Of a DNA stretch of 64,000 bases, positions 43,581-50,816 are shown piece by piece. Position 1 is the first letter of the stretch. Each line of letters begins with the position of its first letter. Source of the DNA: Lachnoclostridium sp. (GTDB taxonomy: Bacteria > Bacillota > Clostridia > Lachnospirales > Lachnospiraceae); assembly GCA_023665475.1 (NCBI GenBank), contig JAMPEB010000005.1:62001-126000 (forward strand). Reading direction: 5' to 3'. The notes below the pieces were generated by a model. The model worked only from the letters and a program-made list of their open reading frames with translations, had not been told where the DNA came from and did not search any database. The translations under genes and the position numbers were made by a program.

Positions 43581-43880
43581 ATGAAAATAGAATCACAAAA
43601 AGACGGGGGGAACCTTATCATAAAGCTGGAGGGCAGATTGGAGACATCCACGGCGCCGCAGCTTCAGGAAATAGCGGAAAAAGAACTTCAGGATGTCACG
43701 GATTTGCAGATTGACATGGAGCAGTTGGAATATGTGTCATCCGCCGGATTAAGAGTGCTGCTTTTTATTTCCAAAAAGATGAAAGCAAAACAGGGAAACA
43801 TGAGTATCTGTCATGTGGGGGAGGATATTATGGAAGTATTTGAAATTACGGGCTTTAATAATATCCTGACCATCCGATGA
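43581..43880 (+). CDS. STAS-domain anti-sigma factor antagonist
   Basis: 99-residue SpoIIAA/RsbV-type protein. The loop YVSSAGLRVLL holds the Ser that is phosphorylated in this family, and the start LIIKLEGRLETSTAPQL is typical. Its stop overlaps the next start (ATGA). The likely phosphatase and kinase are both domains of the protein at 44983. Confidence 0.9.
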   Translation: MKIESQKDGGNLIIKLEGRLETSTAPQLQEIAEKELQDVTDLQIDMEQLEYVSSAGLRVLLFISKKMKAKQGNMSICHVGEDIMEVFEITGFNNILTIR

Positions 43881-44974
43881 GCGGTAATGCGGAGGGGAAC
43901 GGTTTTTCCCTTCATAAAAAGCGGGATTGGGGAAAGAAAATATCCCTTGAGAATAGGGAAGGCAGAATACTGACCGTGATGCTCAGACAGTATCTTCCGG
44001 GAGATGAGGAAGGGATGGTTGCCTGCATCAGGGATGAGTATGGGGATACTTATTTTAAAAGTGAGCTATATCATCCCGGGTACATACAAAAGGAAGCGGA
44101 AAGCGGGCACATTACCTTTCTGGTGGCGGAAACCAAATCGGGAGAAATCGCGGGAATGCTGATGCTGAAAGAGTTTTATCCGAAGGAAACCATGTGCGAG
44201 GTGGCTTCCGAGATTTTTAGGAAGAAATACCGGGGATATGGTCTGGCAATGCCCTTTTTTGAATATGGCATGAAGATTTTGTTGTCCCGTCCCTATTCTG
44301 CGGGTTTTTGTCTCCCGGTATTGTTCCATGATGTGACCCAGCGGCTTTTGGGGCGTCTGGAATTTCATGCCTGCGGCTTTGTATTGAATGTGTTTGACAT
44401 GGAGAAAATCGTACATTCTTATCATAACGGCAAAAATACAAAACACTCTCAGGGCGTTCAGATTCGGATGACGGGAAAGCAGAATGCGGGCATTGTTTAT
44501 GCGCCGCAGGAGCACAGGGCATACTGTTACCGCATTTATGACAGGCTGGGAGCGGGCTGCCAACTGGCGACGGGGAGGCGGATGAAGGGGGAAAGCCTGC
44601 CCTCTTCCAGCGATATCGGATACTGCAATGATAGTGTACAGAGCAGTCTGGAAATCTATGTTTACGGAATCGGCGCTGATTTGCCGGCAGTCATATGTGG
44701 ATTACATAAAAAATATCCGCTGTCGGGCAGGCAGACCGCCAATATCTTTTTAAACTGCAGCGATACCTATGCGCCATGGGCGTATGAAGAGCTGACGAAG
44801 CTGGGATACTTTTTTACCGGATTAAAGCCACTGTGCAGCGAAAAGGAATACTTGATTCTGCATCATCCGGGGGAAGTGAGGATTTATTTTGAAGATTATG
44901 CGGTTGACGAGGAATTTGCGCCTTTGCTTGCCTATGTGCGCAGATGTTATATGAAATCAGGAAAAGGAGGTTAA
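43877..44974 (+). CDS. GNAT-family N-acetyltransferase, two-part
   Basis: 365 residues. The N-terminal GNAT domain (about 35-170) has VAETKSGEIAGMLML and FRKKYRGYGLAMPFFE as the acetyl-CoA loop. The C-terminal half (about 190-365) is unfamiliar but contains WAYEELTKLGYFFTG, echoing a second GNAT-like fold. It sits between the STAS and SpoIIE-type genes, overlapping the STAS stop by ATGA, so it is probably part of this signalling unit. Confidence 0.75.
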   Translation: MSGNAEGNGFSLHKKRDWGKKISLENREGRILTVMLRQYLPGDEEGMVACIRDEYGDTYFKSELYHPGYIQKEAESGHITFLVAETKSGEIAGMLMLKEFYPKETMCEVASEIFRKKYRGYGLAMPFFEYGMKILLSRPYSAGFCLPVLFHDVTQRLLGRLEFHACGFVLNVFDMEKIVHSYHNGKNTKHSQGVQIRMTGKQNAGIVYAPQEHRAYCYRIYDRLGAGCQLATGRRMKGESLPSSSDIGYCNDSVQSSLEIYVYGIGADLPAVICGLHKKYPLSGRQTANIFLNCSDTYAPWAYEELTKLGYFFTGLKPLCSEKEYLILHHPGEVRIYFEDYAVDEEFAPLLAYVRRCYMKSGKGG

Positions 44975-44982
44975 GATTGCAT

Positions 44983-47535
44983 ATGAAAAAGAAGAGAAGC
45001 ATCCGGCGCAAGATTACCACCGTCTTTCTTATTGTACTTATGGCAGAAATGATTTTGACCGGAGCAGTCAGTATGTGGAGTCTGTATTCCATGAAAAATG
45101 TTTCTACGGAGTCGAACAACAGTCTGGGAAAGACGGCTGCGGAAGATGCGGAGACGGCGCTGGAAGATATGGCGGGCAAGCATTTGCAGGCGCTGGCAGT
45201 GGAAAAAGCTACCTATATCGAACAGAAATTTGAAGAGGTAGCGGCGTATCTGCATGGAATAGCAGCCGCCGCCGAAGAAATTTATGCACATCCGGAAAAT
45301 TATCCGGACAGGACGGTTGCCCTGCCGCAGATGGGAAGCACGACACTTGCCGCGCAGCTTATGTGGTCGGAAAGTCTCGGGGAGCCTGTGCCGGAAAATT
45401 GGACGGAGCTCTACAAATTGGGAAATCTACAGGATATGCTGGTGCAATATAATAACCATAATGACATGGTTTCTTCTACTTATGTGGCGACACAGAGCGG
45501 ATGGATGATTCAGGCGGATTATATTGCGTTCAGTAAATATGAGGGAGGAGCACAACATCCTGATTTTTATGAGGCTGCTTCCAGACAATGGTATCAGCGT
45601 GCGCTTCTGGCGGAGCGGGGAACGGTTGTATATTCCGATGTGATTGCCGACATTCACTCGGGAAGTAACTGCATTGTCTGCGCCCAGCCTATTTATTATG
45701 AGGAAGAAATTGTGGCGGTGGCAGGCGTGGGTTCTTATCTGGACACCGTGAATGAGGCGGTATTAAACACTACAATCGGAGAAAAGGGTTATGCCTTTTT
45801 GGTCAATGAAAAGGGACAGGTTATGGTTTCGGGAAAGGACGATGGGGAAACGGCAGCAAATGCCGAAACCAATGTCGATTTGCGGGAAAGCGGAAACGCA
45901 CAGCTTGCAAAGGCTGCAGAATCCATGGTATCCGGAAATAGCGGACTTTGTAAGCTGTCCGTGGACGGAAAAGAAGTTTATCTTGCTTATGCCCCGTTAA
46001 AGGGATTGCATTGGAGTTTTGTCACGGTGATAGATGTGGCGGAAGTGATAGCCCCTGCCATGAAAAGCAGGCAGGAAATACTTACACTGACGGAAAGCAT
46101 GGCGGAAAAACAGGAAGCATCCATCAGGAATACGCAAATTATCTATCTGGCAATTCTGGTGCTCTCCGTAGGCATCATCAGCTTGGTCAGCGTTTTGTTT
46201 ACCGGAAGGCTGACCGCGCCCATACACAGATTGACGACGGAGGTTGCGGATTTTAACGGAGGAAATTTGGACCATCAGATACAAATTGCCACGGGGGATG
46301 AGGTGGAAGAATTGGGAAATGCGTTTAACGGCATGACGGCTCAACTGAAAAGTTATATCGGAAATCTTGCCGCCGCTACGGCGGAAAAGGAACGGATACA
46401 GACGGAGCTGGGGCTGGCGGCTCAGATACAGGCGGACATGCTGCCCGATTCCGAAAAAATATTGACTGACAGAATTGAGTTTGCCATCCATGCAGGAATG
46501 ACTCCCGCAAAAGAAGTAGGAGGAGACTTTTATGATTTCTTTTTGACGGATGAAAACCATCTTGCCTTTTTGATTGCCGATGTATCGGGGAAAGGTGTGC
46601 CGGCGTCCCTGTTTATGGTGGTGGCAAAGACGCTCCTTAGAAGCCATATTACGGATGCGGAGTCTCTGGCGGAAAAAATGGAGGAAGTCAACGCCAGCCT
46701 TTGTGCCAATAACCAAAATGATATGTTTGTCACGGCATGGGCAGGGATTCTGGATTTATCCACGGGAGTTTTAACTTATGTAAATGCGGGGCATAATCCG
46801 CCTTTGCTCAAGCAGAAAAAGGATAGCTATGATTATCTCAAATCCCACAACGGCTTTGTCCTTGCGGGAATGGAAAACGCCAGATATACCCGGAGCAGAG
46901 TACGGCTCAGACCGGGAGACACCATCTTTTTGTATACGGACGGCGTAGTGGAAGCAAATAATGAAGAAGGAAAGCTTTACGGCGAAGTGCGGTTGAGGCA
47001 GCTTTTAGGCAAAAATGCCGCTTTGGAGCCGGAACAGCTTGCGGAAGAAGTTTGGAAAAGCGTCAGGGATTTTCAGGGAGCCGCAGAGCAGTTTGATGAT
47101 ATTACAATGTTGATTATCCGCTATAACGGGGACGGATATGAGACAAAAACCGATGTTCCCAATATGGGACGGATGGAAGAAATCAATCAATGGGTTGAGG
47201 AACAGCTCAAAAGAAACGGGATTTCCCAAAAAACCATCACCAAAATCAGAATGGCTGTGGATGAAATATATTCTAATATCTGTTATTACAGCAAAGCGGA
47301 GGAAGTGACCATAGGATGTAAAGTAACGGAACAGAGAGAAGCGGTACTGTATTTTGAGGATGACGGTATTCCGTATAATCCTTTGAAGCGTCCCGACCCG
47401 GATGTGACACTGCTTATGGAAGAGCGGGGAGAAGGAGGTCTCGGTATCTATCTGGTGAAAAAGCGCATGGATAAGGTGGAGTACAAATTTGTGGAAGGCA
47501 GAAACTGCCTGATACTTATGAAAAGGGAAGATTGA
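44983..47535 (+). CDS. Membrane sensor with SpoIIE/RsbU phosphatase and RsbW-like ATPase
   Basis: 850 residues: transmembrane helix (10-30), extracellular dCache-like sensor (about 60-380), second helix (about 390-410), HAMP, PP2C domain (about 470-690, PAKEVGGDFYDFF, ADVSGKGVPASLFM, LYTDGVVEANN) and a C-terminal HATPase domain (VDEIYSNICYYS, FEDDGIPYNP, GEGGLGIYLVKKRMD). A single protein could both dephosphorylate and phosphorylate the STAS partner. ATG 44983 is used; TTG 44977 is better spaced from AGGAGG. No sigma factor gene is adjacent. Confidence 0.9.
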   Translation: MKKKRSIRRKITTVFLIVLMAEMILTGAVSMWSLYSMKNVSTESNNSLGKTAAEDAETALEDMAGKHLQALAVEKATYIEQKFEEVAAYLHGIAAAAEEIYAHPENYPDRTVALPQMGSTTLAAQLMWSESLGEPVPENWTELYKLGNLQDMLVQYNNHNDMVSSTYVATQSGWMIQADYIAFSKYEGGAQHPDFYEAASRQWYQRALLAERGTVVYSDVIADIHSGSNCIVCAQPIYYEEEIVAVAGVGSYLDTVNEAVLNTTIGEKGYAFLVNEKGQVMVSGKDDGETAANAETNVDLRESGNAQLAKAAESMVSGNSGLCKLSVDGKEVYLAYAPLKGLHWSFVTVIDVAEVIAPAMKSRQEILTLTESMAEKQEASIRNTQIIYLAILVLSVGIISLVSVLFTGRLTAPIHRLTTEVADFNGGNLDHQIQIATGDEVEELGNAFNGMTAQLKSYIGNLAAATAEKERIQTELGLAAQIQADMLPDSEKILTDRIEFAIHAGMTPAKEVGGDFYDFFLTDENHLAFLIADVSGKGVPASLFMVVAKTLLRSHITDAESLAEKMEEVNASLCANNQNDMFVTAWAGILDLSTGVLTYVNAGHNPPLLKQKKDSYDYLKSHNGFVLAGMENARYTRSRVRLRPGDTIFLYTDGVVEANNEEGKLYGEVRLRQLLGKNAALEPEQLAEEVWKSVRDFQGAAEQFDDITMLIIRYNGDGYETKTDVPNMGRMEEINQWVEEQLKRNGISQKTITKIRMAVDEIYSNICYYSKAEEVTIGCKVTEQREAVLYFEDDGIPYNPLKRPDPDVTLLMEERGEGGLGIYLVKKRMDKVEYKFVEGRNCLILMKRED

Positions 47536-47577: not shown

Positions 47578-47889
47578 CTATGCTAATTTTGCCTTTAGGT
47601 CTCTTACATCCGATTCCAGCATTCCGACTCTGATTGCCAATGTTTCGACTTCAGCGCCGGGTTTTATTGCATGGTGCAGATTTCTGGATAAATCCAGATG
47701 CCCTTCGGCTACCCGCTGAATATTCACGCGGATTTCATTTTCCAATATCAATTTAGTTTCTGTGACCGTGCTTTCTACATTGGACATTCTGTCTTCCATA
47801 TTGGACATTTTCTCGTCCATGGTTGTTGCGTGCTGCTTTAAGTCTTGCACTTCCGAAAGCAGGAGATCAAGCTTTTCACTGTCTGTCAT
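47578..47889 (-). CDS. Coiled-coil protein of unknown function
   Basis: 103 residues, almost entirely heptad-like (KLDLLLSEVQDLKQHATTMD and MEDRMSNVESTV). Small coiled-coil proteins of this look recur in Lachnospiraceae genomes without a known role. GAAAGGAGACG precedes the start on the minus strand. It lies outside the left recombination site, so inversion would place it next to a different end of the switch. Confidence 0.7.
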   Translation of the reverse strand: MTDSEKLDLLLSEVQDLKQHATTMDEKMSNMEDRMSNVESTVTETKLILENEIRVNIQRVAEGHLDLSRNLHHAIKPGAEVETLAIRVGMLESDVRDLKAKLA

Positions 47890-47995
47890 ATTATCGTCTC
47901 CTTTCTTTGTAATTTATGTATGGTTGAATGGTTGTAAGGATAGTATACCATAGCTTAGGTGCAAAGTCTATTGTGAAAAATGTATAATAAAATAA

Positions 47996-48028
47996 GAATG
48001 CAACATAATGATACATTGTGTTGCATTC
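47996..48028 (-). repeat. Left recombinase site
   Basis: GAATGCAACA and TGTTGCATTC arms around a 13-bp core. The reverse complement matches the site at 48836-48868 at 30 of 33 positions. The hairpin extends by one AT pair on each side. Confidence 0.75.
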
Positions 48029-48095
48029 TTGCTTACACCATATATATCGACAGCTCTAAAAAATACTTTAGGGCAATTTCGGATTTTTTTTTGAA

Positions 48096-48126
48096 AAATT
48101 TGAAAAAGCCCTGATTCCGGTGGGGG
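48096..48126 (-). terminator. Terminator of the recombinase gene
   Basis: On the minus strand AAAGCCC, a 12-nt loop, then GGGCTTTTT. It ends recombinase transcription before the left site. A CTAAA/TTTAG stem follows. Confidence 0.6.
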
Positions 48127-48142
48127 CTTTCCGACCGCATAT

Positions 48143-48727
48143 CTATAGTGCAATATTCATAAATACATTATCTTTGTCATCCTGCTCGATTCCCAAATAT
48201 CGTTTTGTAATCTGATAAGAAGAATGATTGTAAATATTCATTAATAATGCGGGCGGAATTCCCTGCTGCCATGCATAATAGCCAAAGGTCTTGCGCAGGG
48301 AGTGGCAGCTAATATGCTCGTTTAATCCTATATCCCGGGCGGCTTCTTTTATAATGCGGAAAGCCTGATATCTGCTCAGGGGCTGATTCTGTCCTTTTCT
48401 GCTGGGAAACAGATAGGTCTGAAACGAGGGAACGGAGGAAAGGGACGCCATGTAAAAACCGAAACTCTCCTTGACCGTTCTGTTTAAGGCAATCATATTC
48501 CTTTTTCCCGTCTTTTTTTCCGTTACCATAATATGGGAATGAAAGGTTCCTTTTGAGAAGTCATAAATATCTCCCCATTTCAAATGTAATACATCCGTAA
48601 TCCGCAGAGCGGTATTTAAACACAAAATGCATAAGGCATAATTCCGCTTATTGGGGTGAAGTTTACCATAATACTCTTTGAATTCCAGAAGTTTTTCGGG
48701 GTCTCTGATAGGTTGTGTCGTACTCAT
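48143..48727 (-). CDS. Tyrosine recombinase (XerC/FimB-like, core domain only)
   Basis: 194 residues from ATG 48727 (AGAGGAG upstream on the minus strand). The catalytic set is visible: Arg in NTALRITDVL, Lys in the TEKKTGK hairpin, HSLR in CHSLRKTFGYYA, NHSS in place of the later His/Trp, and Tyr in KRYLGI. There is no N-terminal SAM-like arm-binding domain, as in FimB/FimE-type inverting recombinases. It lies inside inverted 33-bp repeats. Confidence 0.9.
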   Translation of the reverse strand: MSTTQPIRDPEKLLEFKEYYGKLHPNKRNYALCILCLNTALRITDVLHLKWGDIYDFSKGTFHSHIMVTEKKTGKRNMIALNRTVKESFGFYMASLSSVPSFQTYLFPSRKGQNQPLSRYQAFRIIKEAARDIGLNEHISCHSLRKTFGYYAWQQGIPPALLMNIYNHSSYQITKRYLGIEQDDKDNVFMNIAL

Positions 48728-48835
48728 GCTAATCTCCTCTTTTCTGTTGTTGTGTGCAATTCGTTTTTGAAAAGCCATAATACATCAAAAAAATTTCCTT
48801 GTAAATATAATGCGCTTTTCTTAAGGCCTGACCGC

Positions 48836-48868
48836 AAATGCAACACAATGTATCAAAATGTTGCATTC
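48836..48868 (+). repeat. Right recombinase site
   Basis: AATGCAACA and TGTTGCATT arms around CAATGTATCAAAA. It sits about 110 bp upstream of the recombinase start and 40 bp before the csrA start. Confidence 0.75.
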
Positions 48869-48907: not shown

Positions 48908-49273
48908 ATGTTAAGACTGACAGTGAGCACGGAAGAGTACCTGATGATTGGGGATGATATCAAGCTGGTGTTTCTGGGAGGCACGGGAAAACACCTGAGG
49001 ATCATGGTGGACGCCCCCAAAGAGACAAATATTTTGAGAAGCTCGGTGCTGGAAAAGGACATCAAGGACCCAGAGAGGCGGGCAAATCTGCCCAAGTATT
49101 ACGCTCAGGTCGAGCATCCGGAAAAATATGTGAAGAAAACGCAGCAGACCCGGAACAAGGCAGACAAGGCAGAATCGGAAGCAATCATGGAACAGGCTGC
49201 CCGGCAGACATCAAGTCAGACGGCAAAGCCCCACATCATCATAGCCCGCGGGAACGCAGGAAGCAACAGGTAA
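48908..49273 (+). CDS. csrA: CsrA with long C-terminal extension
   Basis: 121 residues. The first 50 match CsrA (MLRLTVSTEEYLMIGDDIKL, LRIMVDAPKE, SSVLEKD), the RNA-binding translational regulator that controls flagellin with FliW. The usual protein ends near residue 60-75. Here a hydrophilic tail of about 60 residues (YAQVEHPEKYVKKTQQTRNK onward, Gln/Ser/Lys-rich) follows. AAGGAGG precedes the ATG. It lies 133 bp before flagellin, whose leader carries GGA sites. No fliW is in the window. Confidence 0.85.
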   Translation: MLRLTVSTEEYLMIGDDIKLVFLGGTGKHLRIMVDAPKETNILRSSVLEKDIKDPERRANLPKYYAQVEHPEKYVKKTQQTRNKADKAESEAIMEQAARQTSSQTAKPHIIIARGNAGSNR

Positions 49274-49406: not shown

Positions 49407-50816
49407 ATGGTAGTACAACACAATTTAACAGCAATGAATTCCAACAGAATGTTGGGTCTGACCACAAAGTCACAGGCTAAGTCCACAGAGAAACTGTCAT
49501 CCGGTTACAAGATCAACCGTGCGGCTGACGATGCTGCAGGATTAGCAATCAGCGAAAAGATGAGAAGACAGGTTAGAGGTCTGACTCAGGCTTCCGCAAA
49601 CGCTCAGGACGGCATTTCCGCAGTGCAGACCGCAGAAGGCGCATTGACAGAAGTGCACGATATGCTCCAGAGAATGAACGAGCTGGCAACCAAGTCCGCA
49701 AACGGAACCAACTCTCAGGAAGAGCGCGACTACATCCAGAGTGAAGTTGACGCTTTGATCAATGAGATTGACCGTGTATCCGAGACTACCAAGTTCAATG
49801 AGATTTATCTGCTGAAGGGCGATGGTACAGAAATGCAGAAAGTTACCACAGCAGCAGAAGCGGAAGTTCCCGTTGCGGCAGAGTATGCTACAGGCAAAGG
49901 TGGCAGCGGTGCAATTACATTAGCAGCTAGCTATGCGGCTAACAAAATGGGTGCTGGCAAGGATGAGTCATGGTATGCAAAGGGTGGTACTACAGCACTT
50001 ACTGAAGCAGAAATCCTTGACAGTCTGGAAGTAGGTACAGATGGAAAAGTAAAATTTAAAGATAATGTAGAAATCTACACTGTAGCGGCAAATACAGGAA
50101 CGAATTATGGCGCCCAGACCGTGGATAAGAAAGCGACGATAACAGATGCAAACTTTACCATTGCTTCCACAAAGATTTCCACAGCAGCTGATGGAACTGC
50201 TTTAGTTGAGGAAAAGGATTTGGCTGATTTGTTTAATTTGGACGGCACACTGAAAGCGGATGTTTATGCACAGGATGGAACCGATTGGGAAAAAGTTGGT
50301 GCAGAGCAGTTATCGAAGTTTGTTGAGGTAACGCCTGGTAAGGAAGCAGTTGAAGAAGGAGAAAAGGAAGTAGAAGTTTCCAAGGCTTTGGAATTCAACC
50401 TCCATGTAGGTGCAGAAGGCGGTGCAAAAGATGATCCCAAGGCTATCGCTAATAAGATTACCGTTAAGATTGAAGCCATGAGCGCAAAAGGGATCGGCGT
50501 TGACGGATTAAAAACTTCCGGCGTAAAAACAGAAGAGGCTGCTACCGCAAGCATCGAAACCATCAAGTCTGCAATCAAGAAGGTTTCCCAGCAGCGTTCC
50601 GACCTCGGTGCAGTCCAGAACCGTCTGGAGCACACCATCAACAACCTTGACAATATCGTTGAGAATACACAGTCCGCTGAGTCTGCAATCCGCGATACTG
50701 ACATGGCTACCGAGATGGTGAAGTATGCCAACAACAACATCCTTGCTCAGGCAGGTCAGGCAATGCTTGCACAGGCAAATCAGGCAAATCAGGGCGTTCT
50801 GTCCTTACTTAGCTAA
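49407..50816 (+). CDS. hag: Flagellin
   Basis: 469 residues. Conserved D0/D1 ends: NLTAMNSNRMLGLTTKSQAK and LSSGYKINRAADDAAGLAIS at the start; LGAVQNRLEHTINNLDN and ANNNILAQAGQAMLAQANQA at the end. The central 150-380 region is variable and Ala/Thr/Lys-rich, the surface-exposed D2/D3 part. A strong terminator follows. Confidence 0.97.
   Translation: MVVQHNLTAMNSNRMLGLTTKSQAKSTEKLSSGYKINRAADDAAGLAISEKMRRQVRGLTQASANAQDGISAVQTAEGALTEVHDMLQRMNELATKSANGTNSQEERDYIQSEVDALINEIDRVSETTKFNEIYLLKGDGTEMQKVTTAAEAEVPVAAEYATGKGGSGAITLAASYAANKMGAGKDESWYAKGGTTALTEAEILDSLEVGTDGKVKFKDNVEIYTVAANTGTNYGAQTVDKKATITDANFTIASTKISTAADGTALVEEKDLADLFNLDGTLKADVYAQDGTDWEKVGAEQLSKFVEVTPGKEAVEEGEKEVEVSKALEFNLHVGAEGGAKDDPKAIANKITVKIEAMSAKGIGVDGLKTSGVKTEEAATASIETIKSAIKKVSQQRSDLGAVQNRLEHTINNLDNIVENTQSAESAIRDTDMATEMVKYANNNILAQAGQAMLAQANQANQGVLSLLS

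Follow-up and report, generated by a model that had tools for sequence, protein, structure and literature searches.

What does a small recombinase gene do when it is set between inverted repeats directly in front of a csrA gene and a flagellin gene? The locus lies in a 64,000-nucleotide stretch of Lachnospiraceae DNA (the window) from a genome of 3.1 Mb in 48 contigs, and an initial annotation had read it as a self-contained DNA inversion switch, with a tyrosine recombinase between two inverted 33-bp palindromes, each ~110 bp from the recombinase gene, and with csrA 40 bp beyond the right palindrome and a flagellin following. This architecture was confirmed throughout: the two arms form an inverted pair that matches at 30 of 33 positions with 809 nt between them, both arms are imperfect palindromes, the enclosed open reading frame (ORF) matches Phage_integrase, the ~110-bp spacing holds for the likely coding sequence, 40 bp separate the end of the right site from the csrA start (48908), and Pfam matches identify both downstream genes. 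The 873-bp segment (47996-48868) encodes a conserved sigma-28 promoter in addition to the recombinase, and is therefore not the "recombinase-only cassette" that had been described. The features of the locus are as follows.

47983-47988, plus strand: TATAAT, immediately outside the left site and directed into the segment
47996-48028, no strand: left recombination site, 33 bp, with the central 7 bp TGATACA at 48009-48015
48045-48070, minus strand: sigma-28 (SigD/FliA type) promoter, TAAA-N15-GTCGATA, within the segment and 18 bp from the left site
48071-48145, minus strand: stable fold between the recombinase stop and the sigma-28 promoter, z-score -3.1
48143-48727, minus strand: tyrosine recombinase (DNA invertase) of 194 aa, counted from a conserved Met, Pfam PF00589 at 88 bits
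48777-48805, minus strand: sigma-70-like promoter, 10/12 match
48836-48868, no strand: right recombination site, 33 bp, with the core complement TGTATCA at 48849-48855
48908-49273, plus strand: csrA2, an auxiliary, divergent CsrA of 121 aa with a C-terminal extension, PF02599 at 59.7 bits
49363-49382, plus strand: hairpin GGCGTAAA(AGGA)TTTGCGTC in the flagellin leader, with the form of a CsrA-binding site
49407-50816, plus strand: predicted phase-variable flagellin, 469 aa, the second flagellin of the genome, PF00669 and PF00700

The longest recombinase ORF comprises 211 aa and begins at 48778; its residue 18 is a Met that is conserved across relatives, and 48727 is therefore the likely start. 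The R-K-H-R-H/W-Y catalytic residues of tyrosine recombinases are present (R59, K89/K92, H159, R162, H185 and Y194 in the numbering of the 211-aa ORF) and are 99-100% conserved in 84 relatives, and the match to PF00589 places the protein outside the Hin family of serine recombinases. We gathered relatives of this recombinase from the genus and the family and retrieved the surrounding DNA, obtaining 91 recombinase loci. Paired sites 0.6-1.4 kb apart are present at 68 of them; about 20 loci have no recognisable pair, some owing to contig ends. Sixty-three modules in 50 Lachnospiraceae genomes combine paired sites, a recombinase and an outward sigma-28 promoter with csrA and/or flagellin adjoining a site; the same device is found in about 50 related species. 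Two layouts recur: in type A (n = 52) the recombinase gene is followed by the promoter, which has the same direction, and the arms are TGCAACA or similar, and in type B (n = 11) the promoter precedes the recombinase and diverges from it, and the arms are mostly GTAACAC.

The sigma-28 promoter (48070-48045) is the sole perfect match in the 64-kb window, where 0.04 were expected. As assembled, it reads leftward and leaves the segment on the side opposite to csrA and flagellin, and the csrA2-flagellin unit is without an evident sigma-28 promoter of its own (the OFF orientation); in the predicted inverted state (ON) the promoter would face csrA2 from about 100 bp upstream, with its -10 about 90 bp before the csrA2 start. 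Among the 68 paired-site segments, 37 contain a perfect sigma-28 motif (0.13 expected from shuffles) and 65 contain one with at most one mismatch (5.8 expected from shuffles), and in most cases the promoter points outward and its -10 end is 15-27 bp away from a site. No sigma-28 motif was found between the csrA-side site and the flagellin in 59 regions. On the other side, a conserved gene that might be the target of the OFF-facing promoter was sought in the related loci and not found; the genes there are unrelated between loci and lie on either strand (33 vs 23). These comparisons make it most likely that the promoter has been conserved in order to transcribe csrA and flagellin after inversion.

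These data are consistent with a model in which the 873 bp act as an invertible promoter element, switching csrA2 and the second flagellin by means of a recombinase encoded within them, and we consider this model very probably correct. The recombinase would exchange strands within a ~7-bp core of both sites and so flip the segment. In the OFF state the internal promoter would fire away from csrA2 and flagellin, and after inversion it would cotranscribe both genes whenever SigD is active. The other flagellin of the genome would stay under its fixed sigma-28 promoter, such that the switch would add or swap in a second flagellin, as in hin-fljBA. We infer that inversion takes place within this species, that it alters expression and that the recombinase suffices for it.

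Inverted repeats should bound the segment that holds an invertible promoter, as they do here, and both of its orientations should occur, which is seen here between related species. Segment positions 1-725 of locus L133 (ON) match 775-1 of L129 (OFF) at 77.8% identity, and positions 3-740 of L113 (ON) match 752-3 of L110 (OFF) at 74.8%; both pairs are inverted end to end with the csrA flank in the same sense, which is the flipped configuration that the initial annotation had proposed looking for in related genomes. As judged from these alignments, both orientations occur in nature, among related species. The sites themselves point in the same direction. In 39 of 42 loci both sites of the locus have the same central 7 bp, whereas between loci a mean of 4.2 of these 7 positions differ; the 16 arm positions show 1.7 differences within loci vs 2.8 between loci; within-locus identity limited to a freely drifting core is as expected for the overlap region of strand exchange. 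The sites had been likened to loxP with a 13-bp core, and their palindromic form agrees with that description, but the cross-locus comparison reduces the core to ~7 bp. In each of 12 genomes with several modules, every module has its own core, an arrangement that would insulate the switches within a genome from one another.

Alternatively, the palindromes could be regulator sites or hairpins that have nothing to do with the recombinase, which would then be the remnant of a mobile element. Their location 18 bp downstream of the promoter could suit operators, and the initial annotation had named widespread palindromes among the findings that would undo its proposal. TGCAACA-N13-TGTTGCA with 0 or 1 mismatch occurs at exactly two places genome-wide, the left and right switch sites, both flanking the recombinase, and the palindromes are therefore not dispersed regulator sites. 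The arrangement is moreover shared by 68 loci, the otherwise variable core is identical within a locus, and whole segments are found inverted, all of which make this explanation extremely improbable. Together, the presence of both orientations in relatives and the recombination-type core strongly support a self-contained switch upstream of csrA and flagellin.

Several related loci depart from the common layout. In L108 (4122-5187) and L121 (4498-5256) the segment is located between two divergent flagellin genes, and a single promoter should therein serve either flagellin, as a toggle. The two L108 flagellins (597 and 459 aa) share alignable sequence only at their ends, and a flip would therefore exchange the surface domain. 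Locus L110 (G002:C2:257000-276900) contains three tandem recombinase-csrA-flagellin cassettes in 15 kb, two of which have recognisable site pairs, with different cores. In L165 (4471-6243) the segment measures 1.77 kb and the sigma-28 promoter is 1 kb from the recombinase. In the window, the OFF-facing promoter is followed by a 103-aa coiled-coil-like ORF (47578-47889, minus strand), which has a 60% relative at the same position in L025/L153 and was not found at other loci. Farther left (43581-47535) are genes for a STAS-domain protein and for a large phosphatase with Cache, HAMP, SpoIIE and HATPase domains, together a predicted partner-switching regulator set.

The switched unit contains a regulator as well as a flagellin. 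A late flagellar locus elsewhere in the genome includes flgK, flgL, fliW, a canonical csrA, fliD and fliS (named from their sequences), and its contig ends with another flagellin, preceded at 229 bp by a perfect sigma-28 promoter in fixed orientation. The switched flagellin is thus an extra one, just as fljB is relative to fliC. CsrA2 passes the Pfam cut-off for the CsrA domain and falls below the TIGR00202 cut-off for canonical CsrA (33.5 vs 70.1 bits). Arg6 and Arg44 (E. coli numbering) are the RNA-contact residues of CsrA; among the module CsrA proteins Arg44 is present in 69 of 69 and Arg6 in 0 of 69, being replaced by Val in csrA2. Hairpins with GGA in the loop, the form of CsrA-binding sites, are present in the leaders of 51 of 63 switch flagellins (1.4 expected), their stems differing in sequence, and the leader of the fixed flagellin likewise has a GGA-type hairpin, GCCGCAAGGAAGCGG. 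Possible roles of csrA2 are regulation of flagellin translation, competition with the canonical CsrA and binding of FliW.

The hairpins, together with the position of csrA2 as the first downstream gene, could also be taken to mean that the switch is mainly post-transcriptional, as had been suggested from the sequence upstream of csrA: the flip would alter the csrA leader, and the level of CsrA would set flagellin translation. That reading is unlikely, however, because the conserved sigma-28 promoter in the segment and the presence of flagellin in the same unit as csrA2 make transcription the primary output; because the modules of L108 and L121 have a flagellin beside the site without csrA; and because csrA2 lacks Arg6 in every copy. 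What survives of the suggestion is a possible second layer of control, for which the divergent CsrA and the leader hairpin are the candidates.

The assembled orientations are heavily biased. Among the 63 modules, 59 are OFF, 2 are ON and 2 lie between divergent flagellins. A second strain of the species with the segment flipped was sought in a collection of one genome per species and not found; of three relatives from a contig scan, the nearest, L153, has a recombinase 97% identical and the same orientation as the window. Since the loci are related, we claim no exact probability for 59 of 61 single-target modules being OFF. A freely flipping switch would not look like this unless flipping or selection were strongly biased. 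The segment could therefore be fixed, having inverted in the past of the lineage and become locked OFF, with its flagellin silent or expressed from a weak, unrecognised promoter. Both the excess of OFF modules and the shared orientation of the nearest relative fit such a history, but a locked switch would be expected to decay, and here the recombinase ORF is open with its catalytic residues conserved, the two sites are intact with identical cores, the csrA and flagellin frames are open, and relatives include ON copies. We therefore regard a locked segment as quite improbable.

Under the favoured model of an active invertible promoter, the bias may have either of two causes. In type A modules, a TATAAT-like element in the left flank (32 of 48 flanks vs 16.7 expected; 47983-47988 in the window) would transcribe the recombinase in the ON orientation only, and could in this way drive a return to OFF. 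Alternatively, cells with flagellin ON may be selected against in the gut. The sigma-70-like sequence at 48777-48805 may drive the recombinase, as a weak candidate: when a conserved recombinase promoter was sought across 53 type A relatives, a comparable match was found in 17 alone. The fold at 48071-48145 is a possible terminator. Contig breaks within 400 bp of sites number 6 on the non-flagellin side, where 1.0 were expected, and 0 on the flagellin side, which is suggestive of mixed orientations and nothing firmer.

Our data suggest that the module works like the Salmonella hin-fljBA system without being a member of it. In both, an invertase gene and a sigma-28 promoter for flagellin share one invertible segment and the other flagellin (fliC in Salmonella) is located elsewhere, and the unit switched in Salmonella also encodes a post-transcriptional flagellin regulator, FljA (PMC2652032). 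Hin, however, is a serine recombinase that acts at hix sites (PMC11868660) and its system includes a Fis-bound enhancer (PMC3798978), whereas the module uses a tyrosine recombinase and 33-bp sites, and FljA is encoded downstream of its flagellin whereas the CsrA paralogue is encoded upstream. The module seems to be a convergent solution, with CsrA in place of FljA and a recombinase of another class. More speculatively, and by analogy with the action of FljA on FliC, csrA2 might tune the translation of one or both flagellins.

Clostridioides difficile also switches flagella with a tyrosine recombinase, RecV, whose gene is elsewhere in the genome, apart from the flagellar switch. The target there is the early flgB operon rather than csrA2 and flagellin, and both the recombinase and the sigma-28 promoter lie inside the segment only in the module described here. 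E. coli FimB and FimE are likewise small tyrosine recombinases of ~200 aa that invert a promoter, but the switch recombinase scores far below the cut-offs of their NCBIfam models (PRK09870/PRK09871; 42-45 bits vs 221-222). In Bacillus subtilis, flagellin is under CsrA-FliW-Hag control; the CsrA-type hairpin before the ribosome-binding site and the canonical csrA beside fliW are shared features, and the extra, divergent CsrA without Arg6 is a difference. A recombinase ORF is likewise enclosed by an invertible segment of ~0.8 kb in Providencia stuartii (PMC5903667), which differs in its fimbrial target, its 14-bp repeats and its host, a gammaproteobacterium.

Relatives of the recombinase found at class level outside the Lachnospiraceae are without csrA, flagellin or the promoter, and those found in a viral collection are without the module context. 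Phage relatives among the matches listed have at most about 42% identity, except for two unverified human-faecal records labelled "Bacteriophage sp.", L249 (MT837916.1) and L248 (MT837633.1), which contain parts of the module. Both look like bacterial DNA, and for L249, which holds recombinase, csrA and flagellin, bacterial flagellin DNA is the probable identity. A prophage-type family may be the source from which the switch recombinase was recruited. Many Streptococcus Javan prophages encode small tyrosine recombinases ("site-specific recombinase") that are ~40% identical, and these may likewise invert DNA.

No published description of flagellin inversion in Lachnospiraceae was found in a search of open-access journal papers. 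Neville et al. (2013) tabulated sigma-28 flagellin promoters, with none for some flagellins, in a text from which the words recombinase, integrase and inversion are absent (PMC3720852). We tentatively raise the possibility that such self-contained flagellin switches are widespread in gut Lachnospiraceae, with one genome holding as many as three copies that have paired sites and mutually incompatible 7-bp cores, and with a mostly OFF state in the gut. The ON state would then yield both a second flagellin and a divergent CsrA, the latter silencing or retuning the flagellin already present, a two-layer antigenic replacement (DNA inversion plus RNA binding) that would have arisen independently of hin-fljBA. 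The system also provides compact recombination sites with predictable cores. In Crohn's disease and chronic fatigue syndrome, the flagellins of Lachnospiraceae are a major target of antibodies (PMC11285207). If invertible promoters control many of these flagellins, a single commensal strain would vary at the level of DNA in its flagellin content, its motility and its exposure to the immune system, and since ordinary metagenomic reads reveal the orientation, host selection for flagellin-OFF commensals becomes directly testable.
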